Source: Methylophaga sp. (lineage in GTDB: Bacteria; Pseudomonadota; Gammaproteobacteria; Nitrosococcales; Methylophagaceae). From it: DNA of 40,447 bases. The notes under the pieces are model-generated. The model was not told the origin of the DNA. It saw nothing but the letters and a program-made list of their open reading frames with translations, and ran no database searches. Of the stretch, positions 5,562 to 30,798 are shown one piece after another (the stretch's first letter is position 1; every line of letters begins with the position of its first letter). The stretch covers positions 1 through 40,447 of the forward strand of contig JAGXHJ010000011.1 in NCBI GenBank assembly GCA_024636315.1, read 5' to 3'. The position numbers were made by a program, and so were the translations under genes.

Positions 5562-5621
5562 AGTTCACATTATCTCTACAATATCAGGATGTTATCCATA
5601 GTGCATATAAGGAAGCTACAG

Positions 5622-7463
5622 ATGAACAAGATTAAATTAGTTGCGATATTTAGTGTGGTGTTATTAGTTGGTATTGTTGCCTTAGACTATAAAAACACTA
5701 GTATTGAACAAGTAAATGACCAGTTGGCAAGTAACCCGCCTGCTGCAGGAGGGGAAGTCCCTTTTGGTGATATTAGTACAGGTTCTAGCGACTCTAATAC
5801 TGTAGCAGGATTTAAAAGTACGACAAGCACAAGAAGCGTTTTCAAGGTAAAAGAGGGGAATGTGACATCGTATTCAGATGTTCCATCTCGTAACCAAGGA
5901 TCGACAACAGGAACTGCAGAAATAATTCAAGTTAAAACTTCTGTCCCGAGTACAGGTGATAGTAATGTAATACAAGTTGGACAATCTCAGTGGGCAAGTC
6001 AATTTGATCTGTTCCCTCAGGATCAAGATGGCTGGTCAATCATTGAGCCTGCCGCAGATTCAAGACTAATATATGTTAGTAATTCTACTGGTAATGATAG
6101 TAACGCTAAATTTTATTCATCAAAAGAAATTACTAATCCGCATAACCCACCAAGTAATGTACTTGCTTACAAAACAGTATCGGCAGCCTTGAAACAACAA
6201 AGAGCTGACCATGCGGACTGGGTGTTACTTAAAAAAGGTGAGGAATGGGACAGTGGGGCATGGTATTTGAACTCTGGCCGCTCGAGTAAAGAACCTTTAG
6301 TTATAACGTCGTATGGCGGTGACTATGAAAAAAGACCTTTGGTTAAGACCGGGACTAATTCGGCAGTAATTCTTAAAAGTGGAAAAAGCTTTATTGCAAT
6401 AACAGGAATTGAGTTTTACGCAAATAAACGTGATCCAAACGGCGTGAACTTTATTGGCTGGGATAACGTACAATCTCCTGGCGGTTTTGTTAGTGTTGTC
6501 GGATCGAATCAGCCTTCGCAGGCTATAACACTCGAAGATAATGTATTTAATTTTTACGGTGGAGCTGTTGTATTTTCGGGATCTGATTCGCAAAAAAATA
6601 TTGTGGTAAGACGAAATCAACTCTTAAACTCATATTCAACTTCCAGTCACAGCCAAGGGATATTCACCTCCAAGACCACAATGTTATTGGAAGAAAACCT
6701 TATTGATCATAATGGCTGGTACCAACAAAACTACGAAACATTAAATAGTCGAGAAAAAGGACAAGCAACTTGGTTTAACCATAATATATATATATCTAGT
6801 CCCCTAGATACAGTCATAACAGGAAATCTTATTACAAGATCGTCAAGCATTGGTATTAAAGTAGCTGGTAGCGCAAATACAGAAACCAAACAAAATGGTG
6901 TGGTTGCAGAAAATTTAATAGTTAGTAATAATTTATTTGCAGAAGGTGAAATAGGAATATCAGCCGGAGGGAATAAAGACTTTGACAATGGTTATAGGTT
7001 CAAGAACTTCACTTTCAAAAGCAATGTAATGATACATCTTGGCGATAGTCAACCTTTACGTCGAACTTTTGCCATGGGTATTCAAACTGTGGACTGGGAT
7101 GGCGGTGTGATTACGGGTAATCAATTTTTATATACCGATAATGAAGATGTGACCAATATACACGGGGTAGATATATCTGGTTTAACTAGAAATGTAACGG
7201 TCAGTAATAATACTTTCAAAAATTTGAGAGATTCTACGCCAGTTAGCCCATACAATGATGAGCCGGTTGAGAACCTTATTATAGAGAATAATGTGGCCGT
7301 AAAGGTTAACCTTTCTAGTCGCCATGACTTAACTTCTTATTTTAATACAGGGGGCGCGGGCAATGCTGTTAGCGCTCTTGTTGAGAAATCTAAAACACAA
7401 TCTAAATTCAGTTGGAATAAAGCGTATACTGCTAGTGAAATTAACGAATATTTAATGAATTAA
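5622..7463 (+). CDS. Membrane-anchored right-handed parallel beta-helix protein
   Basis: Secreted or periplasmic protein of unknown reaction. The beta-helix fold is typical of polysaccharide lyases, epimerases and carbohydrate-binding proteins, so a role in modifying or trimming the EPS is plausible but inferred. I chose the ATG at 5622 rather than the one at 5589 because AAGGA (5609-5613) lies 8 bases before it; this gives 613 residues beginning MNKIKLVAIF. Residues 4-22 form an uncleaved-looking TM or signal anchor. Then follows a low-complexity Ser/Thr/Asn/Gly region (to about 130) and a helix with repeated N-x-x/NNxF/N-L-I turns (for example NLIVSNNLF, VSNNTFKN, IIENNVAV). No catalytic motif of a named lyase family is recognisable. 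The C-terminus has no PEP-CTERM signal. The gene has its own terminator and a 5' gap, so it may be regulated apart from the operon. Confidence 0.75.
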   Translation: MNKIKLVAIFSVVLLVGIVALDYKNTSIEQVNDQLASNPPAAGGEVPFGDISTGSSDSNTVAGFKSTTSTRSVFKVKEGNVTSYSDVPSRNQGSTTGTAEIIQVKTSVPSTGDSNVIQVGQSQWASQFDLFPQDQDGWSIIEPAADSRLIYVSNSTGNDSNAKFYSSKEITNPHNPPSNVLAYKTVSAALKQQRADHADWVLLKKGEEWDSGAWYLNSGRSSKEPLVITSYGGDYEKRPLVKTGTNSAVILKSGKSFIAITGIEFYANKRDPNGVNFIGWDNVQSPGGFVSVVGSNQPSQAITLEDNVFNFYGGAVVFSGSDSQKNIVVRRNQLLNSYSTSSHSQGIFTSKTTMLLEENLIDHNGWYQQNYETLNSREKGQATWFNHNIYISSPLDTVITGNLITRSSSIGIKVAGSANTETKQNGVVAENLIVSNNLFAEGEIGISAGGNKDFDNGYRFKNFTFKSNVMIHLGDSQPLRRTFAMGIQTVDWDGGVITGNQFLYTDNEDVTNIHGVDISGLTRNVTVSNNTFKNLRDSTPVSPYNDEPVENLIIENNVAVKVNLSSRHDLTSYFNTGGAGNAVSALVEKSKTQSKFSWNKAYTASEINEYLMN

Positions 7464-8849: not shown

Positions 8850-10250
8850 ATGAGTAAGGGTAATATATTTGCCTATTTAGTTTTGTTGTCTTGGCCGATT
8901 ATTTCTATTTGGTTATATAAAACAAAGTCTATCCAATTAGCAACATTGTGGACGATTCTCGGTGGTTTTATGTTTTTGCCCGTGAGAACACAGATTGATT
9001 TTCCACTGATTCCCCCTTTAGGGAAAGATAGCATGCCCGTTATATCAGCTTTCCTTGGTCTTTGGTTGGTTAAAGGTAAAATGATTTCATTGAGTAGTAA
9101 CCGTGGCGGGGTTAAGTGGTTACTATATTTGTTTGTGATAACCCCAATAATAACGGTAATGCTTAATGGTGATGCTGTGAATGTTGGCGGTCACATTATG
9201 CCTAGCCTAGGCTACCATGATGCTATTTCGACAACGATAAATAATTTACTTTTTATCTTGCCCTTATTCATGGGAAGACAGTTCTTCCGTTCTTACGAAT
9301 CTCAGTTATTGATGTTTAAAGTACTAGTCATTGCAGGACTTGGTTATTCTCTTTTAATGTTATATGAAATTAGAATGAGCCCGCAATTGCATAGTAGCTT
9401 ATACGGCTACTTCCCCCACAACTTTGGGCAACAAAAAAGGTCTGGGGGGTTCCGCCCTGTTGTATTTATGGGGCATGGCTTATGGGTGGCTTTTTTTGCA
9501 ATGACGATAATGTTAGCCGCTGTAACACTATCTAAAAATGGCATCAAAGCATGGAAATATTCATCAGCCAAGGTTAGTTATTATTTTTTTATAGTGCTAA
9601 TTCTCTGTAAAAGTATGGCCTCAGTAGCTTATGGACTATTTGCTTTTTACTTAATTAAATTTACAAGTAATAAATTTCAAATGCGAATGGCTATTTTAGT
9701 AACCTTGTTAGCATTAGCGTACCCAACAATGTCGATATTAAACTTGGTACCATACGATGAAATAACTAGTGTTGCTCGAATGGTTGATGATGACCGAGCA
9801 GATTCTGTTCAATTTCGCTTTGATAATGAGGCTGTCTTGCTGGCTCATGGTTCAGAGCGGTTCTTTTTTGGTTGGGGTGGATGGGGCCGAAACCGCGTCT
9901 ATGATAATCAAACTGGTGAAGATATTACAATTACTGATGGCCGATGGATTATTACATTTGGTCAATTTGGCTGGTTCGGTTTTATAGCTGAGTTCGGGTT
10001 GTTAGCGATGGCTGTTTTTAGAGCCAGCAGAGCCTTAAAGTTAGTCAAAGATAAAAAACAAAGTAATATGCTAACAGCTCACGCACTACTCGTGTGCTTG
10101 ATTATGCTTGATCAAATACCAAATGCAACGCTTGCACCATGGATGTGGTTATTGGCCGGTATTTTACTTGGTCGCTCGGAAGCAATAATTGCTGAAAATC
10201 GAGAGGCAATGAACTTAATATCAAATGTAAAGGATGGCAATGTTCGCTAG
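8850..10250 (+). CDS. O-antigen polymerase/ligase-like membrane protein (Wzy-like)
   Basis: Polytopic inner-membrane protein expected to polymerise lipid-linked repeat units in the periplasm. The 466 residues contain roughly ten or more hydrophobic helices. Before the last helices there is a large periplasmic loop (around residues 305-375) with the pattern FRFDNE, GWGGWGRNRVYD and TDGRWIITFGQFGWFGF, characteristic of the Wzy/WaaL family. Sequence conservation in this family is low, so polymerase rather than ligase is inferred from context: a Wzz-like regulator and an export channel sit in the same locus and there is no lipid A core gene. The ATG at 8850 opens the reading frame and encodes MSKGNIFAY. 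The 3' end overlaps the ABC transporter gene. Confidence 0.8.
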   Translation: MSKGNIFAYLVLLSWPIISIWLYKTKSIQLATLWTILGGFMFLPVRTQIDFPLIPPLGKDSMPVISAFLGLWLVKGKMISLSSNRGGVKWLLYLFVITPIITVMLNGDAVNVGGHIMPSLGYHDAISTTINNLLFILPLFMGRQFFRSYESQLLMFKVLVIAGLGYSLLMLYEIRMSPQLHSSLYGYFPHNFGQQKRSGGFRPVVFMGHGLWVAFFAMTIMLAAVTLSKNGIKAWKYSSAKVSYYFFIVLILCKSMASVAYGLFAFYLIKFTSNKFQMRMAILVTLLALAYPTMSILNLVPYDEITSVARMVDDDRADSVQFRFDNEAVLLAHGSERFFFGWGGWGRNRVYDNQTGEDITITDGRWIITFGQFGWFGFIAEFGLLAMAVFRASRALKLVKDKKQSNMLTAHALLVCLIMLDQIPNATLAPWMWLLAGILLGRSEAIIAENREAMNLISNVKDGNVR

Positions 10251-20933: not shown

Positions 20934-21815
20934 ATGAGTAAACCTGACTTTATTATAATAGGGGCAATGAAAAGTGCTACCAGTACATTGCATGAACAGT
21001 TAGCAAAACAATCTGGTATTTTTATGTCTACACCCAAAGAGCCGAATTATTTTAGTGATGATGCTCAGTATGCTTTAGGTGACGACTGGTATGATGCGTT
21101 ATTTAATGATGCTAAACCCGATGATTTATGTGGGGAGTCGAGTACTCACTATGCCAAGCTACCAAATCATCCAGACACTCTGGAAAGGATGAGTAAGCGG
21201 CTTGAAAATCCAAAATTGATATATGTGATGCGGCATCCAATTGATCGCCTGATTTCACATTACACCCACCAATGGACACAAAACGTGTTTAAGTGCGATA
21301 TCAATCAAGCAATTGATCAATATGAGGAGTTAACTGCTTATAGTTGCTATGTTAAACAATTGACACCGTATTTTGAGCGATATGGATACCAAAATGTGTT
21401 ACCAGTTTTTACTGAGTCACTTAGAGTTAACCCACAGAAAGAATTAGAACGCGTAGCTAAGTTTATTGGTCACGCTGAACCAGTCGTTTGGCATGATGAG
21501 GTATTGGAACAGAATGTATCGAGTGAAAGGTTCCGTACATTTAAAGGTCGTACTCTCTTTGACTCTAAGTTGATGACCATTTTAAGACGTACGTTAATAC
21601 CTAAAAGCTTACGAAATAGAGTCAAAAAAGCACTTACAATGGCTAAGCGGCCTGAAATTGACCAAGCACACTATGCGAAATTAACAGCATTATTTGATAA
21701 GGACTTAGCTGTACTAGGTGCAATGATGGCTGTTGAATTGAATTGTGAAAATTATAAAATGGTAACTAGTGAACAAGAGCTTAATTGGTCGAAAGCATAT
21801 TGGAATAAACAATGA
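20934..21815 (+). CDS. PAPS-dependent sulfotransferase
   Basis: Transfers sulfate from 3'-phosphoadenylyl sulfate to a hydroxyl of the polysaccharide or its lipid-linked precursor. The 293-residue protein has the 5'-phosphosulfate-binding loop IIGAMKSATSTL (about 8-19, with the catalytic Lys13) and the 3'-phosphate-binding segment YVMRHPIDRLISHY (Arg100, Ser108), both diagnostic of the Sulfotransfer_1/3 families. The PNYFSDD and CGESSTHY segments are also typical of heparan and Nod-factor sulfotransferase relatives. It overlaps the next acetyltransferase gene by 4 bases (ATGA). Sulfated EPS is common in marine bacteria. No PAPS-synthesis genes are in the window, so PAPS must come from assimilatory sulfate metabolism. 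Confidence 0.9.
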   Translation: MSKPDFIIIGAMKSATSTLHEQLAKQSGIFMSTPKEPNYFSDDAQYALGDDWYDALFNDAKPDDLCGESSTHYAKLPNHPDTLERMSKRLENPKLIYVMRHPIDRLISHYTHQWTQNVFKCDINQAIDQYEELTAYSCYVKQLTPYFERYGYQNVLPVFTESLRVNPQKELERVAKFIGHAEPVVWHDEVLEQNVSSERFRTFKGRTLFDSKLMTILRRTLIPKSLRNRVKKALTMAKRPEIDQAHYAKLTALFDKDLAVLGAMMAVELNCENYKMVTSEQELNWSKAYWNKQ

Positions 21816-22312
21816 TTTCAACTTCTGAACCAGATTGGTCTCGAGAAAAGCCGAGGCAGTTTTTGGATAAAAGTCGACGATTATTAAGGGCTATTAGAGG
21901 TTATCAAAGATGCAAACAAAATGTAGCTCTTTTTATAACTAAATTAGCTGTGCTTCAACATCGTTTTTGGTCTGTTATAACTGGCGCAGATATACCACTC
22001 ACTAGTAAGTTAGGTGGAGGGTTACTTATTCCGCACCCTAATGGTATTGTTGTTCATCCAGATTCAGTGATTGGTGTGAATTGTTTAATTCACCAACAGG
22101 TAACCATCGGTGTAAAAAGAGGCGGTGATAAACCACCTGTATTAGAAGGTCATGTTGATGTAGGAGCTGGTGCCAAAATAATAGGGTCAATTTTAATTGA
22201 AAGAGATGCGTTAATTGGCGCGAATTCTGTTGTTGTAAAGAATGTGTCTGCTGGATCTATTGTGGCGGGTATTCCTGCAAAAGTTATTGGTTCTACTCGG
22301 GGGCAGAGATAG
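21812..22312 (+). CDS. CysE/WcaB-like serine O-acetyltransferase-family enzyme
   Basis: Small (166-residue) hexapeptide acetyltransferase related to serine acetyltransferase but without its N-terminal helical domain, as in the polysaccharide enzymes WcaB and EpsC-type proteins. After a basic N-terminus (about 1-45) come LTSKLGGGLLIPHPNGIVVH (His52 and His59 region), VIGVNCLIHQQVTIG, a family loop KRGGDKPPVLEG, then VDVGAGAKIIGSILIE and DALIGANSVVVKNV, ending AGIPAKVIG. Acetyl-CoA is the expected donor and a sugar of the EPS the expected acceptor, because no cysteine-biosynthesis gene is nearby. The start overlaps the sulfotransferase stop, and the stop codon directly abuts the next ATG. Confidence 0.85.
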   Translation: MISTSEPDWSREKPRQFLDKSRRLLRAIRGYQRCKQNVALFITKLAVLQHRFWSVITGADIPLTSKLGGGLLIPHPNGIVVHPDSVIGVNCLIHQQVTIGVKRGGDKPPVLEGHVDVGAGAKIIGSILIERDALIGANSVVVKNVSAGSIVAGIPAKVIGSTRGQR

Positions 22313-24922
22313 ATGGAAGAAAGCAAAGTAATAGGTATTGTTGCAAAAAATTCTTTGTCTTATGTTAAAGCTGTTTTTGATGCATATAAAGCAAATTCGA
22401 CCGTTGTTTTATTACGTAGTTCTGATGATGAAGCGAGAATCACGCTAACTAAGGTTACAACTGTTATAGAACCAGAAGAAGACTTTGGTTGGTTTGATTC
22501 GGCATATGACTTTGAAAACACTGATGCTGTTGCACAAATTTCATTTACGTCTGGCACTGAAGGTGAGCCTAAAGGAGTGCTGCTGACACACAAAGCTTTA
22601 TCCGATGTGAGTCGACGTTTAAATGACATTATGGAACTCGATTCATCCATTCGAGAATATGTTGGTGTGCCGGCTCATTTTTCATTTGGGTTAGGTAGGT
22701 TTCGAGCAATTGCAAATGTTGGTGGTGCAGCTTATTTACCTGAAGCTGGATTTAATCCCCTAGAAATACGAGATATGCTCAAAGCTGGCGAAATTAATGC
22801 TATATCTGCAGTCCCAACTTTGTGGCGAGTATTACTAAAGAATAAATCGTTATTTTCTACCGAAGCATTAGATTTAAAATGGATAGAAATAGGTAGCCAA
22901 TATATGAGTAGGCAGGAAAAAGAAGAGTTAAAAACTCTTTTTCCTAAAGCAATTATTGTTCAACATTATGGTTTAACCGAGGCATCTAGAACTACATTTC
23001 TTAGAATAGACCAAGTCGAGGGTGAGTTATTAGAGTCAGTAGGAATTGCTGTTGGTAGCACTCAACTCAAAATTTCAGCATCTGGCCGAATTTGCATTCG
23101 AGGCGATCATGTCGCTAGCTCATTGCTCAAAATGGGTGAATTTACTAGTAATGTAGATGACTCCGGATGGTTCGAAACCAATGATCTTGGAGCGTTAGAA
23201 GATGGCTACCTTTATTATCTAGGTCGTGCAGATGACTTGATTAATTGTAGCGGTATTAAATTGTCTCCCGATGCTTTGGAACGAGATTTACGCGAATATC
23301 TTAAGATAAAAGAAGGTATTGCCATTTCTAGTTATGACGATAGCCTGACGGGTAATGGTGTATTAATTGCTTTGAAAAGTACTGTTGAGAGGGCTTCGGC
23401 GGATGTGTTCAACGCGGCAATTGATATTTTATCTAAATATGGGCTGCATAATAAAAATGTCGTTAAAGTAATTGTGCTTGATGAGTTTCCTGTGACATCA
23501 ACGGGCAAGGTGCAACGTAAAGAGCTGGCAAAGCTTTATAAGTCTGAAAATACCAAGAAGATTGCCCCTAAAGTGGGAGAAGATAAGTCAGACGTAAACG
23601 AAGAGTTATCAGATGATGAATTCTATGTTCAAGGCATTTGGCAACAGGTTTTGAATATAAAAAATATTGACGTAGATTCGAACTATTACCAGCTTGGCGG
23701 CGATTCATTAAGTGCAATTAGTGCCGTTATTGAAATGGAGCAGTTGGGTGATGTTCCCTCAGCGCTATCAAAAGGCATGCTACAGGGGTTAACGATAAGA
23801 GAGATTGCAAACCAATTAACCACTGATGAACGAGTCAAAAATTATAAACATAAGATTCGTTCACCTGAAGTGAAGGCTGGCATTACAATTAATATTATCC
23901 GTGGGTTTTTAGTGTTATGTGTGATTTTAGCTCATTGGTCAGATGGTATTTTGGAGCGATTACCTGAGAGTATTAGCAATTTAGCACCTTACTTTGCACC
24001 AATTCTTTCAATAGGAACACCAGGCTTTGCGTTAATTTATGGTGTCGGAGCAGGTTATTCCTTATTTTCAATTTATCAATCAGACTCGCTACGCTTAAAA
24101 CGGTTATTGCATAAAACAGTCGTATTATTGTCATGGGGGATTTTAGCTTTAGCGGTGGTACATTTCGTAACAGCTTTAATAGTGTCATCTGAAGTCACAT
24201 TTACTGATTTTACCAACTCTTTTTATTCAGTATTAACTTATTATTTATTAATTTCATTAACCTTATCTTTTTGGTTTAAGGTTCTTTCATTTTCAAAATA
24301 TCCTGCGATTTGGAGCTTGTTGCTAGCGCTGTTGTTTTACTCTATTCATACTTTTGGTATACGTTATTTAGGTGTGTATCCAGCTGAAGGTGTCGTTGAA
24401 TTTATTAAACTATTATTCACAGCAAAATATTCATATTTTTTAATGCTTACAGGAACGATGATCGGTATTTCAATCGGAATGCATATAAGACATTTAATTG
24501 ATAATAAGCAATCTCTAGATGTTTATAAGTTGATTGGATTAATTGCTATATTAATGGGGTTTGTTATTTCCGTTCATGCTGGAGATCAACAAAATTGGTT
24601 AGTTTGGCCTAGCCATTACAATCATATATGGCGCTGGGTATTATATGCTGGCGTTATTTTGGTTATGTTGTCAGTTGTTGATAAATTGCTCTTTAATTAT
24701 GACCATTTCAATCGAGTCATGCGCTTGTTTATTCAGTTTTTTGCCGTTATTGGTATCTTAGCCTTTCCACTATTTATTACCCATGAAATGGTTTTACCAA
24801 TAAAGTCTGTACTCGTTTATTTCAATATGAACGGTACACTAGCCATGCTTATTCCTTTATTTTTATTCGTTGCAAGTAGCTATCTAATGTTTCGTAAAAT
24901 ACGCAGCGTTAGTTTTTTATAA
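22313..24922 (+). CDS. Adenylation - carrier protein - membrane acyltransferase fusion
   Basis: One 869-residue polypeptide with three parts. Residues 1-415 form an acyl/aminoacyl-adenylating domain: A3-like SFTSGTEGEPKGV (77-89), A5-like HYGLTEAS (218-225), A7 GWFETNDLG (285-293), A8 GRADDLINCSGIKL (304-317) and the A10 lysine in STGKVQRKEL (Lys399). Residues 435-503 form a phosphopantetheine carrier with GGDSLS, attachment Ser465. Residues about 520-865 are polytopic (about ten helices) and begin IIRGFLVLCVILAHW, matching the Arg-x10-His signature of acyltransferase-3 membrane enzymes (Arg530, His541). The likely function is to activate a carboxylic acid with ATP, load it on the carrier and transfer it to the glycan at the membrane, a single-chain analogue of DltA/DltC plus an acyltransferase. 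The A4-like region (PAHFSFGLG, 120-128) lacks the Asp that binds an amino group, arguing for a non-amino acid. The domain before A3 is unusually short. A 4'-phosphopantetheinyl transferase must act in trans. Confidence 0.82.
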   Translation: MEESKVIGIVAKNSLSYVKAVFDAYKANSTVVLLRSSDDEARITLTKVTTVIEPEEDFGWFDSAYDFENTDAVAQISFTSGTEGEPKGVLLTHKALSDVSRRLNDIMELDSSIREYVGVPAHFSFGLGRFRAIANVGGAAYLPEAGFNPLEIRDMLKAGEINAISAVPTLWRVLLKNKSLFSTEALDLKWIEIGSQYMSRQEKEELKTLFPKAIIVQHYGLTEASRTTFLRIDQVEGELLESVGIAVGSTQLKISASGRICIRGDHVASSLLKMGEFTSNVDDSGWFETNDLGALEDGYLYYLGRADDLINCSGIKLSPDALERDLREYLKIKEGIAISSYDDSLTGNGVLIALKSTVERASADVFNAAIDILSKYGLHNKNVVKVIVLDEFPVTSTGKVQRKELAKLYKSENTKKIAPKVGEDKSDVNEELSDDEFYVQGIWQQVLNIKNIDVDSNYYQLGGDSLSAISAVIEMEQLGDVPSALSKGMLQGLTIREIANQLTTDERVKNYKHKIRSPEVKAGITINIIRGFLVLCVILAHWSDGILERLPESISNLAPYFAPILSIGTPGFALIYGVGAGYSLFSIYQSDSLRLKRLLHKTVVLLSWGILALAVVHFVTALIVSSEVTFTDFTNSFYSVLTYYLLISLTLSFWFKVLSFSKYPAIWSLLLALLFYSIHTFGIRYLGVYPAEGVVEFIKLLFTAKYSYFLMLTGTMIGISIGMHIRHLIDNKQSLDVYKLIGLIAILMGFVISVHAGDQQNWLVWPSHYNHIWRWVLYAGVILVMLSVVDKLLFNYDHFNRVMRLFIQFFAVIGILAFPLFITHEMVLPIKSVLVYFNMNGTLAMLIPLFLFVASSYLMFRKIRSVSFL

Positions 24923-26861: not shown

Positions 26862-28099
26862 AAATTGCTTATTTAGCACCAGAAATCCCCGCTTTATCAG
26901 CAACCTTTGTTTATAAAGAGATCAATAAGTTAAAAGACTTAGGAGCTGACATTGTTCCTTTTTCAGTTCACAGGCCATCGTCTATTGCCAGTGAACCTGA
27001 ATTAAATGACCTAAAAAAACAGGTTATTCATCTATATGAACGATCGAAACTGGCCGTTATTCTTGCTCACTTTTATTTATTGTTTACACATCCATTACGA
27101 TATTTGAACAGTGTGCGTATATTAATATCCGATATGGCTACTGTTGGGATATTTTCAAGAAATGCTCTCGGTTTGGCTTTTAGGTTTTTCTACGCGGGCA
27201 GTTTAGCTAAAGATTTGATACAAAAAGGTTGTCAACATTTACATGTCCATTTTGCTCATGTGCCAACTGATATCTCCATGTATGCGGCCTCATTATCAGG
27301 CATAACCTACAGCGTTACAGCTCATGCCAATGATCTATTCGAGCGAGGATGGTTGTTAAAAGAGAAAGTAGAGCGATCTCAGTTTTTTGCTACGATTTCT
27401 GAGTTTAACAAACGCTATTTGCAAAATATTGGTATTAATACCGACAATATACGGATAGTTCGCTGTGGCGTTGATGACGAGCAATTTGAACCAAGAAAAG
27501 GTTTTATTTCGGGAGCTAAAATTAAGATTGGTGTAGTCGGACGGCTAGTAGAAAAAAAAGGTATTGATACTTTAATTGATGCCATTAGCAAATTAAAAAA
27601 ACAACATCATAATGTTACATTATATATAGCTGGCTCAGGTCCCTTGGAAGATGATTTAATTGTCCAGCTTCGTGAGAGCAAACTAAACAGTGATGATGTT
27701 GTTTTTCTTGGTGCCATGCCCAATGCTCAAGTGGCTGAATTTATAACTTCATTAGATGTCTTTGTTTTACCCTGTAAAATGGATAAAAGTGGTGATATGG
27801 ATGGCATCCCTGTCGTCTTGATGGAAGCTATGTTGTCAGGTGTCCCTGTTATATCTTCAAAACTGTCAGGCATTCCAGAACTTGTCATTGATAAAGAGAC
27901 GGGGTTATTGATTTCTCCAGGAGATAGTCAATCGTTGGCAGATGCAATTTTATTGATGGTTAGTAATGAAGACTTAAGAAATGCTATGGTTCAACACGCG
28001 ATTGCTAAAGTCAAAAATGATTTTTCATTATCGGGTAATACTAATCGCTTACATGATATGTTTAGTGATGTTATTGCTAACAACAGTACATTAAAATGA
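26858..28099 (+). CDS. GT4 glycosyltransferase, colanic-acid WcaL/AmsK-like
   Basis: GT-B transferase of 413 residues. The start EIPALSATFVYKEI and the later LHVHFAHVPTDISMYAASL, SVTAHANDLFERG and TISEFNKRYL are typical of the WcaL/AmsK group of EPS galactosyl- or mannosyl-transferases. The nucleotide-sugar half shows GVVGRLVEKKG, AGSGPLEDDL and GDMDGIPVVLMEAMLSGVP. In the E-x7-E signature the first acid is Asp. I placed the start at 26858, where the ATGA overlap with the preceding stop gives the family-typical N-terminus; a longer frame from 26774 would run inside the upstream gene. The end overlaps the next gene by 4 bases. Confidence 0.87.
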   Translation: MKIAYLAPEIPALSATFVYKEINKLKDLGADIVPFSVHRPSSIASEPELNDLKKQVIHLYERSKLAVILAHFYLLFTHPLRYLNSVRILISDMATVGIFSRNALGLAFRFFYAGSLAKDLIQKGCQHLHVHFAHVPTDISMYAASLSGITYSVTAHANDLFERGWLLKEKVERSQFFATISEFNKRYLQNIGINTDNIRIVRCGVDDEQFEPRKGFISGAKIKIGVVGRLVEKKGIDTLIDAISKLKKQHHNVTLYIAGSGPLEDDLIVQLRESKLNSDDVVFLGAMPNAQVAEFITSLDVFVLPCKMDKSGDMDGIPVVLMEAMLSGVPVISSKLSGIPELVIDKETGLLISPGDSQSLADAILLMVSNEDLRNAMVQHAIAKVKNDFSLSGNTNRLHDMFSDVIANNSTLK

Positions 28100-29238
28100 C
28101 TGCGGTGAAAGTGACATTATCAAATCATCCTATTGTTGATCGTAATGTTTGGTGTGTACTCGGGTTACCATTTGATTGCGTAAGCATTGATGATGCAGTT
28201 AATAGGGTGAATGCTGCGATTTCTCTAAAAGAATTATGTTTTCTCTCAACCCCAAACCTTAATTTTGCCATTGCAGCTCAAAGTGATCCCGCGTTTTTTC
28301 AATCTGTTGTGGATAGTGAGCTAAGTGTTGCTGATGGTATGCCGTTAATTTGGGTCGCAAAACTTTTAGGGCTCCCCTTCACTGAGCGTGTTGCTGGTTC
28401 AACTTTGTTTGAACAACTATCAAAGCAACAAGATCGTAAGTGTAAAATAAAGGTGTTTTTCTTTGGTGGTCAGGCAGGTGTTGCTGAACTGGCTCATCAA
28501 AAATTAAATGAAACTAGTTCCGCGATGGTGAGTTGTGGTTTTTATGATCCTGGTTTTGTTTCCGTTGATGTGATGAGTTCACCAGATATAATCAATAAGT
28601 TAAATCTGGCACAACCTGATTTTTTAGTGGTTGCTTTAGGCGCCCAAAAAGGTCAGGCATGGATCCAAAAAAATCGGCATCAATTGAATGTGTCAGTAAT
28701 AAGCCACTTGGGCGCAGTGATTAATTTTGTTGCCGGCTCTGTGGACCGGGCACCGATTATTTGGCAGCGGTTTGGTTTGGAATGGCTGTGGCGAATTAGA
28801 CAAGAGCCTACTTTGTGGAAGCGATACTTTTTTGATGGATTGGCCTTTTTAAAGCTAATACTTTTTAAGGTTTTACCTTTGGCAATATACGACCGATGGT
28901 TAAAGCGAAGTGAAGCCTTTAGTGTCCCCGCTAATATTAGCCCGATTAAACCTGAAAATAGCCGTATCTTGATTCGTCTGAGTGGCAGTGTCCATCATGC
29001 TGCACTTGATCCCGTTAAACAGGCATTATCTGAGCTTGTTTTTATGAAATCTGACGTTAGCATGGACTGTTCTGAACTAACCTATATTGATAGTGCTTTT
29101 ATTGGTACACTGCTACTATGTCAACGGTATTTAAATGAAGATGGATATCGACTTAATTTATGTCATGTTCCTAAGAGGATTAAGCGTATTTTAAAATTGA
29201 ATAATGTAATTACGCGATTTACTTTTATAGATGATTAA
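28096..29238 (+). CDS. WecG/TagA/CpsF glycosyltransferase fused to a STAS domain
   Basis: Residues 1-270 form a GT26 enzyme of the WecG/TagA/CpsF family, which adds a sugar such as ManNAc, ManNAcA or glucose to a lipid-linked acceptor at the membrane. Visible motifs are STPNLNFAIAAQ (Thr52), SVADGMPLIWVAKLLG (Asp80), VFFFGGQ, FLVVALGAQKGQAWI and FVAGSVDRAPIIWQRFGLEWLWR. Residues 288-380 are an added STAS (anti-sigma antagonist-like) domain: ILIRLSGSVH, then MDCSELTYIDSAFIGTLLLC and NVITRFTFIDD. In SpoIIAA-type domains the phosphorylated residue is the second Ser after the Asp (DSS); here it is DSA (Asp332-Ser333-Ala334), so classic serine phosphorylation looks impossible. The STAS part may bind a partner. 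The gene overlaps the preceding one by 4 bases; 33 bases separate it from the exosortase. Confidence 0.88.
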   Translation: MTAVKVTLSNHPIVDRNVWCVLGLPFDCVSIDDAVNRVNAAISLKELCFLSTPNLNFAIAAQSDPAFFQSVVDSELSVADGMPLIWVAKLLGLPFTERVAGSTLFEQLSKQQDRKCKIKVFFFGGQAGVAELAHQKLNETSSAMVSCGFYDPGFVSVDVMSSPDIINKLNLAQPDFLVVALGAQKGQAWIQKNRHQLNVSVISHLGAVINFVAGSVDRAPIIWQRFGLEWLWRIRQEPTLWKRYFFDGLAFLKLILFKVLPLAIYDRWLKRSEAFSVPANISPIKPENSRILIRLSGSVHHAALDPVKQALSELVFMKSDVSMDCSELTYIDSAFIGTLLLCQRYLNEDGYRLNLCHVPKRIKRILKLNNVITRFTFIDD

Positions 29239-29271: not shown

Positions 29272-30798
29272 TTGTTAACGATGAAACAGAGCGGATTATT
29301 CTTTGTAGCACTGATCCTCGCGATACTTGCTTATTGGAATGGCCTAGCAGAAGCGGTATTTCGCTGGGGAAAACAAGAAGAATATAGTCATGGTTTTCTA
29401 ATTCCCTTAGTTACTTTATATATACTATGGGAAAAATCTGGACTGATTAAAGCGTCTATCGGTCCACCATTATGGTCTGGTTTAATAGTTGTTTTAGCTG
29501 CAATTAGTATTTTTATTGTTGGTGAAATAAGCGCTTTATTTTTATTGATCCAATATTCCTTTGTTTTATTATTAATTGGCCTTTCAATGATAACCATTGG
29601 ACGAGCCACTAAATATACGATTACGCCAATACTGTTATTGTTATTCGCTATTCCCTTACCGTATGTGATCGAGGTGGTACTGACAGCAAAATTACAGTTG
29701 ATCTCTTCATCGTTGGGTGTGAGTTTTATCCGTTGGTTTAATATCCCTGTATATCTTGAAGGTAACGTAATTGATCTCGGTGTATTTCAATTACAAGTTG
29801 TTGAAGCGTGTAGTGGTTTACGTTATTTGTTTCCTTTAATGAGTCTTGGTTTTATTGTCGCTTATTTTTATCAAGCAGCATTCTGGAAAAGATCGATTGT
29901 TTTTCTCGCTACAATTCCTATCACTATATTAATGAACAGTTTCCGTATTGGCGCTATCGGAGTTATGGTCGATAACTGGGGAATATCTATGGCAGAAGGT
30001 TTTCTACATGACTTTGAAGGCTGGATCATATTTATGGCCTGTACTGTCATATTGGTATTGCTGATTTGGTTGATGGAGAAAATCACTAATAAAGATGCTT
30101 CACTGGCTTCGGTATTTGGCGTTGTGTCAGTGCCTGATCTAAGCTTAAAGACAAATATCAATAGTAAACCTACTACAAGCTTACCGCTAATAATTACTAT
30201 TATGATTCTTGCTACGGCCTATGTTTCGGCTCAATTTTTAGACAAACGGGTTGAAGTTTATCCTGGCCATGTGTCCTTTGTTAACTTTCCTATACAGTTA
30301 GCTGATTGGCAGGGAATAAACGATAAACTTGATCCGCAAGTTGTTGAAAAACTTGGGATGACGGATTATCTTTTAGCAAACTATGTGAATAAACAGAAAC
30401 AGGCTGTTAATTTTTATGTTGCCTATTATCAGTCACAGCGTAAAGGTGTCTCGCCACATTCTCCACGTGTGTGTATTCCTGGTGGTGGATGGGAAATAGC
30501 TGATTTACAACGATTAACCGTAGCCGACCATCCGATTAATAGGGTGTTGATCAAAAAGGGCAACCAACGACAGTTAGTATATTACTGGTTTCAGGGGCAT
30601 GGTCGTATAGTTGCTAATGAATATATTAATAAATGGTACTTATTTATTGATTCTATTTTTAAAAATAGAACTGATGGTGCTTTAGTGCGAGTAGTGACAA
30701 ATGTTGCTGAGTATGAATCGCTTGCTGATGCAGATGCACGATTGATTGATTTTATGGCCACAGCAGAGCCAGAATTAAAAAACTATATTTTAGATTAG
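29272..30798 (+). CDS. Exosortase fused to an EpsI domain
   Basis: Inner-membrane cysteine protease-transpeptidase that recognises C-terminal PEP-CTERM-type sorting signals. Residues 1-275 form the exosortase with about eight TM helices and the active-site set Cys180 (VVEACSGLRYL), Arg225 (MNSFRIGAIG) and His246 (GFLHDFEGW). Residues 305-508 form an EpsI domain (DUF3485/TIGR02914-like) with its own TM anchor and the motif SPHSPRVCIPGGGWEI. Exosortase-EpsI fusions occur in the XrtA and XrtD groups. The neighbouring export genes argue for the XrtA EPS type, but I cannot exclude the VPLPA-CTERM type, so no symbol is given. A TTG at 29272 lies 7 bases after AAAGGA; the ATG at 29281 is 16 bases away, so TTG is preferred. 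No substrate with a sorting signal lies in the window. Confidence 0.9.
   Translation: MLTMKQSGLFFVALILAILAYWNGLAEAVFRWGKQEEYSHGFLIPLVTLYILWEKSGLIKASIGPPLWSGLIVVLAAISIFIVGEISALFLLIQYSFVLLLIGLSMITIGRATKYTITPILLLLFAIPLPYVIEVVLTAKLQLISSSLGVSFIRWFNIPVYLEGNVIDLGVFQLQVVEACSGLRYLFPLMSLGFIVAYFYQAAFWKRSIVFLATIPITILMNSFRIGAIGVMVDNWGISMAEGFLHDFEGWIIFMACTVILVLLIWLMEKITNKDASLASVFGVVSVPDLSLKTNINSKPTTSLPLIITIMILATAYVSAQFLDKRVEVYPGHVSFVNFPIQLADWQGINDKLDPQVVEKLGMTDYLLANYVNKQKQAVNFYVAYYQSQRKGVSPHSPRVCIPGGGWEIADLQRLTVADHPINRVLIKKGNQRQLVYYWFQGHGRIVANEYINKWYLFIDSIFKNRTDGALVRVVTNVAEYESLADADARLIDFMATAEPELKNYILD

Follow-up and report, generated by a model that had tools for sequence, protein, structure and literature searches.

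An adenylation-carrier protein with a fused AT3-related membrane domain in a Methylophaga polysaccharide locus

The window, a 40,447-nucleotide stretch of Methylophaga sp. DNA (assembly GCA_024636315.1, contig JAGXHJ010000011.1), carries at 22313-24922 a gene for an 869-residue protein in which an adenylation domain, a phosphopantetheine carrier and a membrane domain related to the acyltransferase-3 (AT3) family lie on one chain. We think it probable that this protein is a self-contained machine for activating and transferring an acyl group, which would activate an acid, load it onto Ser465 and transfer it from the carrier to a polysaccharide. A wider proposal, to which we give an even chance, is that at least two AT3-type lineages (a window type and a cyanobacterial type) were recruited behind one module and that, being fed by a tethered arm, they shed or moved the residues that grip coenzyme A (CoA) and pass one shared acid to exported glycans. 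The features on which these proposals rest are as follows (TM1, TM2 and so on denote transmembrane segments; the rows, types and controls are described below).

22313..24922, + strand: whole gene of the adenylation-carrier-AT3-related membrane protein, 869 residues (Pfam and 12-row alignment)
22313..23548, + strand: adenylation (ANL) domain, residues 1-412 (PF00501, 5.6e-26; N-terminal subdomain about half the usual length)
22544..22576, + strand: A3 phosphate-binding loop FTSGTEGEPKG, residues 78-88 (F78, T79, S80, G81, T82, G84 and K87 invariant in 12 rows)
22664..22714, + strand: A4/substrate-pocket segment GVPAHFSFGLGRFRAIA, residues 118-134 (free of Asp and Glu; S124, F125, G126, G128, R129 and R131 invariant in 12 rows)
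23507..23509, + strand: catalytic Lys399 of the A10 motif (19/19 rows)
23615..23827, + strand: phosphopantetheine carrier domain, approximately residues 435-505 (PF00550, 2.1e-6; found in 12/12 members of set A1)
23705..23707, + strand: Ser465 of GGDSL, the expected phosphopantetheine site (GGDSL in 19/19 rows)
23846..24919, + strand: AT3-related membrane domain, residues 512-869 (10 hydrophobic segments)
23900..23935, + strand: Arg530-x10-His541 in TM1 (18/18 fusions; controls Arg 19/20, Lys 1/20, His 20/20)
24026..24043, + strand: FxxxxG of TM2, Phe572-Gly577 (Phe and Gly in 13/13 type A rows)

Domain architecture and family

Pfam at E ≤ 0.01 identifies three families on the 869-residue protein, MBOAT not among them. 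AMP-binding (PF00501) covers residues 69-269, the match starting as late as position 160 of the 384-position profile; PP-binding (PF00550) covers residues 439-481 with 28.3 bits and passes its cut-off of 20.8; Acyl_transf_3 (PF01757) extends over residues 526-859, equivalent to profile positions 4-324 of 326, with E = 0.0078. An earlier interpretation made without database searches (the sequence-only reading) had assigned an acid-activating domain, a carrier and a membrane domain resembling AT3 to one chain, and both Pfam and the family alignment bear this out. The residues it singled out, Lys399, Ser465 (GGDSL), Arg530 and His541, all occupy the positions it gave and, like many ATP-binding and substrate-pocket columns, do not vary in the 12-row alignment. 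Lys399 and Ser465 are present in 19/19 rows (18 fusions and one thioesterase variant), and no catalytic residue of the three domains varies among relatives that are 33-55% identical.

The ATG at 22313 sits immediately 3′ of an in-frame stop (TAG at 22310), so a longer N-terminus is impossible in this frame. This stop, together with an equally short N-terminus in 18/18 complete rows, rules out truncation through a wrongly assigned start. An origin by chance or artefact is likewise ruled out, as the architecture and the catalytic residues recur across phyla.

The family is rare but real. Eighteen fusions, the window's included, were aligned from four phylum-level groups, along with the thioesterase variant; the rows are related to each other, and counts over them are not independent events. 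The sequence-only reading had proposed a search for the same three-domain architecture and its genome context, and recurrence in four phylum-level groups is the outcome. At E ≤ 1e-60, family matches occur in 6/57 genomes of the window's own family (itself and the thioesterase variant included), in 2/398 genomes of its phylum sample (itself included), and in 2/292, 4/198 and 2/199 genomes of the phylum samples around a cyanobacterium, a Chlorobium and a planctomycete, the latter three counts including the genomes at the sample centers. Scoring in the four phylum samples covered the best 2-4 candidates of each genome, which makes their counts lower bounds. Eight family loci came from a scan of genome contigs. 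Loci L072 and L073, from the Chlorobium phylum sample, group with L035 and L036 (fork 83/76), hence the label Chlorobi branch. In the adenylation-domain tree a genome from the cyanobacterial phylum sample stands beside the window's group (100/99), a position that suggests horizontal transfer. More distant matches, 23-29% identical, were rejected as relatives: the one that was read, L119, looks by reading only like an ordinary nonribosomal adenylation-carrier-thioesterase protein (FDVSV).

The membrane domain and its acyl donor

Across all rows the adenylation domain is 45-66% identical to that of the window, and the membrane domain 13-48%. Hydropathy places ten membrane segments in residues 522-860, as in AT3, and the helices of the domain model are compatible with this. 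The membrane domains are of two types, both of which occur behind the same adenylation-carrier module. Type A comprises 13 rows (the window, its family, L070, the Chlorobi branch, two planctomycete-phylum genomes and the genome from the cyanobacterial phylum sample); type B comprises five (four cyanobacterial rows and one gammaproteobacterial metagenome-assembled genome). They were compared with 20 stand-alone AT3 controls, namely 18 of 21 search matches plus two AT3 neighbors of L038; the target itself (L097), a stop-containing fragment (L098) and L092 (wrong open reading frame) were dropped. Two low-scoring controls, L088 and L089, are HGSNAT-like by reading; they are included in the residue counts and stand outside the 18-row AT3 profile.

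Against that profile of 18 stand-alone AT3 proteins, hhalign matches type B over 283 columns (95.6%, E = 1.1e-8) and type A over 55 columns in TM1-TM2 only (71.6%, E = 3.5e-5). Against the AT3 set combined with type B, type A reaches 88.4% (E = 2.8e-6), with 51 columns aligned by default and 303 if the alignment is forced end-to-end. Two unrelated membrane-protein profiles score ≤ 0.2%. PF01757 is matched at E ≤ 0.1 in 8/12 fusions, and an AT3 hidden Markov model (HMM) ranks L040, L073, L041 and L074 (3.7e-5 to 0.0037) above every unrelated decoy.

A number of results weigh against this kinship. The window's PF01757 score of 15.7 bits misses the gathering cut-off of 31, which is passed by one of the 11 AT3-type fusions scanned singly (L041, 38.1 bits; L070 was scanned against Pfam only at E ≤ 0.001). 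The AT3 HMM puts the window (E = 0.078) barely above the best unrelated decoy (0.14), and L035-L037 fall among the decoys. With a window-type HMM (hmmsearch), no stand-alone AT3 protein rises above noise among the matches listed (best control 0.57, type B 0.28, decoy 0.39). Direct comparison of type A with type B by hhalign yields no match (0.1%), so only the AT3 set, or their shared position behind the carrier, connects the two types; the two HGSNAT-like controls are also unmatched (0.2% and 1.2%). AlphaFold2 models the full chain poorly (pLDDT 64, pTM 0.49). The domain-only model, built with nine sequences, attains pLDDT 75 and pTM 0.80; Foldseek searches with it, for which no AT3 positive control was run, return nothing at E ≤ 0.001 from PDB or BFVD. 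Because of the weak hhalign and HMM separation, the mismatch of types A and B, the poor full-chain model and the lack of a Foldseek match, we call the domain AT3-related: it is a diverged AT3 relative and is not filed as a member of AT3.

Individual residues were counted in one combined alignment of the 18 fusions and 20 controls. A shuffled C-terminus shows R-x10-H 31% of the time, which makes the motif weak evidence in a single sequence; chance does not explain that 18/18 fusions have it at one and the same alignment position. In FxxxxG the Phe is present in 13/13 type A and 0/5 type B rows and the Gly in 18/18. The His at the end of TM9 (His824), another AT3 position, is found in 11/13 type A and 3/5 type B rows, or 14/18 in total versus 19/20 controls, and Gly722 of the sixth hydrophobic segment is invariant in 18/18 fusions.

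At other AT3 positions the fusions differ from the controls in this alignment. The accessible text of a 2025 study of TmAT proteins (PMC12423673) lists as motifs DxxR in transmembrane helix 1 (TMH1), with x10-His in AT3, FxxxxG in TMH2, RxxR in TMH3, Gly in TMH6 and Tyr in TMH9, and has most of the conserved residues contacting the adenosine and 4-phosphopantetheine parts of CoA. The TMH1 Asp is present in 0/18 fusions, which have N, S, H, I or V instead, versus 18/20 controls. Both basic residues of RxxR occupy their aligned columns in 0/18 fusions versus 17/20 controls, a count that depends on the alignment. In the OafB simulations, as far as the available sections of PMC9833829 describe them, Arg74 of RxxR and Arg14 touch the 3′-phosphate of CoA. 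A carrier arm has no 3′-phosphate, and a lost or displaced RxxR therefore agrees with a tethered donor, even though Arg530 remains. Together, the retained deep-pore AT3 residues, the lost TMH1 Asp and the lost or displaced RxxR would fit delivery of the acyl group by a carrier arm rather than by CoA.

This interpretation has its own difficulties. In alignment-free searches, [RK]xx[RK] occurs downstream of TM1 in 10/18 fusions versus 19/20 controls, and strict RxxR in 3/18 versus 14/20, the ranges searched differing by 5 residues between fusions and controls. The three include the window, whose RLKR lies slightly upstream of the aligned RxxR place. The TMH1 Arg (Arg530) is kept, though its OafB counterpart contacts the CoA 3′-phosphate, and the TMH1 Asp is reported, in the accessible text of PMC12423673, to be dispensable in OacB.

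The sequence-only reading's AT3-like C-terminal domain is thus upheld in its ten segments, in R-x10-H (18/18) and in profile kinship, and needs qualifying in that it scores below the PF01757 cut-off, lacks the TMH1 Asp, has lost or displaced RxxR and matches no fold. The structure prediction which that reading had recommended gave a model of the membrane domain to which no solved fold corresponds, and the C-terminal domain search which it had named as a possible refutation gave a PF01757 hit that touches nearly the full profile length at a sub-threshold score.

Might the domain instead serve as a transporter or flippase, exporting or anchoring a carrier-made product? The sub-cut-off Pfam score, the missing fold match, confident default hhalign alignment over TM1-TM2 only (51-55 columns), the AT3 HMM values (the window at 0.078 barely ahead of a decoy at 0.14, L035-L037 among decoys) and the replacement of the membrane domain by a thioesterase in one relative would all agree with such a role. 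We nevertheless regard it as quite improbable: R-x10-H in 18/18 fusions, FxxxxG in 13/13 type A rows and the TM9-end His824 (11/13 type A, 3/5 type B) all lie at AT3 positions; type B, on the same module, is nearer to AT3 (95.6%); L041 passes the Pfam cut-off; L040, L073, L041 and L074 outrank every unrelated decoy; and there are ten segments.

Evidence for a carrier-fed transferase also comes from relatives. L070 8642-12052 encodes a 1136-residue protein in which the same adenylation domain is followed by four tandem carriers and then the membrane domain, as one would expect of a carrier that serves as donor. (L070 is from another family of the window's phylum, and its fusion gene adjoins a TauD-type oxygenase gene.) The protein of L069 9020-11263, from the window's family and situated in a related polysaccharide locus, carries a thioesterase (PF00975, GISFG) behind the same adenylation-carrier module where the fusions have their membrane domain. 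In the adenylation tree it shares a fork with the membrane-domain versions of its family (100/98). From these two proteins we conclude that the part handling the substrate stays constant and that the part making the transfer can be exchanged. In 4/4 Chlorobi-branch loci (L035, L036, L072 and L073) an Sfp-type 4′-phosphopantetheinyl transferase reading frame lies directly upstream of the fusion, as judged among open reading frames of ≥ 100 residues, and the carrier is therefore expected to be charged. Telling against such an expectation elsewhere, the window genome (88% complete) has a single phosphopantetheinyl transferase match, distant from the 22313-24922 gene and, by reading only, short and AcpS-like, and G042, G036 and G040 (99-100% complete) each have one match, away from the fusion gene.

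The adenylation-carrier part could also produce acyl-CoA or a free product, with the AT3 domain using ordinary acyl-CoA and the fusion serving proximity only. Known AT3 donors are acyl-CoA, according to the available sections of a review (PMC9558356); the TMH1 Arg is kept, and many rows have basic residues near TM3. However, a carrier domain would be pointless in a CoA ligase, and the four tandem carriers of L070, the adjoining phosphopantetheinyl transferase genes and the degenerate CoA-contact motifs are hard to reconcile with this arrangement, to which we attach little credence.

The carrier-fed machine we favor would work in four steps. The short adenylation domain, identified by its motifs, would use ATP to join an acid to AMP, and the acyl group would move to the phosphopantetheine arm expected on Ser465. 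The loaded arm might then reach into the fused membrane domain, with its 10 segments, through the cytoplasmic mouth, like the phosphopantetheine of acyl-CoA in AT3/TmAT, and Arg530 and His541 would help hand the acyl group over to an acceptor at the opposite membrane face. With the donor tethered, the domain could dispense with the AT3 parts that grip the nucleotide end of CoA. Judging from gene context, the acceptor here may be the exopolysaccharide or a lipid-linked repeat unit of the surrounding locus.

The activated acid and known systems

The ANL hallmarks (A3 loop, A5 and A10 Lys) are all present and invariant. The sequence-only reading had described a minimal adenylation domain with a short region before A3 and an A4-like region devoid of the amino-binding Asp, and the family agrees on both counts: FTSGT is preceded by 74-94 residues in 18/18 complete rows, consistent with entry into the Pfam profile at position 160, and the A4 segment (VPAHFSFGLGRFRA in the window) contains no Asp or Glu in any of the same 18, window and thioesterase variant included. 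A short N-terminal subdomain occurs elsewhere as well, the NCBIfam MenE model NF005877 having only 362 positions.

Among NCBIfam models, acyl-CoA ligases and MenE score highest (142 and 117 bits), versus 98 for an amino-acid adenylation model. As A4 is free of acidic residues and these matches outrank the amino-acid model, the substrate is likely a carboxylic acid that does not make the usual alpha-amino contact; it is probably a small molecule other than a conventional alpha-amino acid. The pocket segments SFGxGRxR, INAxSxVPxxWR, WIEIGSxYMS and QHYGLTEASR are kept in the 18 complete rows, which makes it likely that one acid is common to the family. Since this near-invariant pocket spans four phylum-level groups, identifying the acid once should explain the whole family. 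More speculatively, the invariant Arg129, Arg131, Arg172 and Arg226 might contact a second polar or charged group of the acid.

The protein may alternatively be a nonribosomal-peptide-like fragment that activates an amino acid, in which case an aminoacylation system like that of AlmE or DltA would be joined to another kind of transferase. Foldseek with the full-chain model returns as its best match the adenylation-carrier unit of McyG, a nonribosomal peptide synthetase (2.7e-21), and DltA models are among the NCBIfam matches. Given the absence of an acidic residue from A4 in 18/18 complete rows and the higher scores of the acyl-CoA ligases and MenE, we find this improbable.

Carrier-dependent decoration of exported glycans, which the sequence-only reading had considered possibly undescribed, has precedents. 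In the accessible portions of PMC3783018 and PMC12930378, Dlt (teichoic acid) and AlmEFG (lipid A) already combine an adenylating enzyme, a carrier and a transferase. The AT3 review (PMC9558356, available sections) records fusions to SGNH and racemase domains, favors acyl-CoA and argues against acyl carrier protein as donor. In a literature search outside whose reach most subscription papers lay, we found no report of an adenylation-carrier-AT3 protein or of a carrier-fed AT3-type domain. The new part would be a carrier-fed AT3-type domain on one chain, the principle having been set by Dlt and AlmEFG.

The individual systems compare as follows. Dlt (DltA, DltC, DltB and DltD) has the same logic of adenylating enzyme, carrier, membrane transferase and exported polymer, but its components are separate proteins, DltB is an MBOAT and the donor is D-alanine, whereas the fusion has no amino-binding Asp. 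AlmEFG of Vibrio cholerae likewise brings an adenylating enzyme, a carrier and an acyltransferase to an envelope glycolipid; it consists of three proteins, of which AlmG has an LPLAT domain, and transfers glycine to lipid A. The AT3/TmAT proteins (OafB, OatA and HGSNAT) share with the fusion ten membrane segments, Arg-x10-His in TM1, FxxxxG in TM2, the TM9-end His and a polysaccharide setting. The fusion differs from them in having its own adenylation domain and carrier in front, in the loss of the TMH1 Asp (18/18), in the lost or displaced RxxR, in its sub-PF01757 score and in matching no fold. Epsilon-poly-lysine synthetase also has adenylation, carrier and membrane domains on one chain; its product is a peptide polymer and its membrane domain is not known to be of AT3 type. 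TIGR03098, an XrtA-associated acyl-CoA ligase, resembles the adenylation domain as an adenylate-forming enzyme of exosortase loci; the model is not known to include a carrier or membrane domain, and with 107.8 bits against a cut-off of 592 the 869-residue protein does not belong to this family.

AT3-type proteins decorate many bacterial surface glycans, and acyl-CoA is taken as their donor (PMC9558356 and PMC12423673, in the parts accessible). If the proposed mechanism is true, a natural fusion that brings its own activated donor would put that assumption directly to the test, would tell CoA-gripping residues apart from those that carry out acyl transfer, and would offer a single-protein route for placing unusual acids on polysaccharides.

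The surrounding locus and the acceptor

The window is a dense polysaccharide locus on the + strand, with glycosyltransferases, an ATP-binding cassette (ABC) transporter, a WecG-type enzyme, exosortase XrtD and sugar-nucleotide genes. The sequence-only reading had also placed the gene in an exopolysaccharide setting beside a sulfotransferase and an O-acetyltransferase. Both neighbors are there, the second identified through a sub-cut-off NCBIfam match.

20934..21815, + strand: neighboring sulfotransferase (PF00685, 9.9e-18)
21812..22312, + strand: neighboring CysE/EpsC-like hexapeptide acyltransferase (NF041874, 100.3 bits, below the cut-off of 150)

The setting holds more widely. At least two polysaccharide homologues accompany the target in 13/17 loci versus 2/20 control tiles (6 genomes), where a homologue is a blastp match at 1e-5 to the window's own genes, a definition that misses other kinds of polysaccharide genes. 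The 17 are drawn from 18 non-window loci, with L039 (a 4.6-kb contig) left out and the thioesterase locus L069 in; the window and L067 are nearly colinear around the fusion gene. Four of the 17 point the other way: L036, L072, L040 and the 5.9-kb contig L076 have 0-1 polysaccharide homologues, and no polysaccharide gene is found among the scanned neighbors of L036, L072 and L040. The acceptor may therefore not always be exopolysaccharide, and polysaccharide decoration is our best guess for the window rather than a rule for the family.

In an alternative that we consider doubtful, though worth weighing, the machine works as proposed, with a membrane lipid, some other envelope molecule or a lipid-linked intermediate as its acceptor. 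The association with polysaccharide genes would then be frequent and nothing more. These four loci speak for it, as do the four Chlorobi-branch fusions, which with their own phosphopantetheinyl transferase genes resemble self-sufficient cassettes; the 13/17 loci among polysaccharide genes and the near colinearity of the window with L067 speak against it.

Fusions and ordinary AT3 proteins can share a locus, as AT3-like proteins occur near several fusion genes. Two stand-alone AT3 genes flank the fusion in the cyanobacterial locus L038 (8660-9805 and 13281-14360) and served as controls. By the AT3-control HMM, L073 16980-18995 (1.4e-61), L070 3048-4985 (2e-58) and L035 5867-6850 (4.1e-16) are AT3-like too; these three proteins had been in the decoy set.

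Further observations concern other genes of the window. The 624-residue reading frame at 5589-7463 has no Pfam match at E ≤ 0.01; a 731-residue relative in L037, a locus of Aeoliella straminimaris, is 30% identical over 375 residues. A 466-residue protein at 8850-10250, also without a Pfam match, is probably a flippase or polymerase, and relatives 28-41% identical are found in 10/17 target loci (L066-L071, L073, L074, L035 and L037). At 28096-29238 lies a WecG/TagA-type glycosyltransferase with a fused C-terminal STAS domain (PF03808, 4.5e-47; PF13466, 5.6e-12), for which L066, L067, L068 and L075 contain relatives 49-51% identical over 360-376 residues. Finally, 29272-30798 encodes the VPLPA-CTERM exosortase XrtD (TIGR04152, 544.7 bits versus a cut-off of 400), and as it lies only a few genes downstream of the fusion, the polysaccharide locus may be tied to protein sorting.

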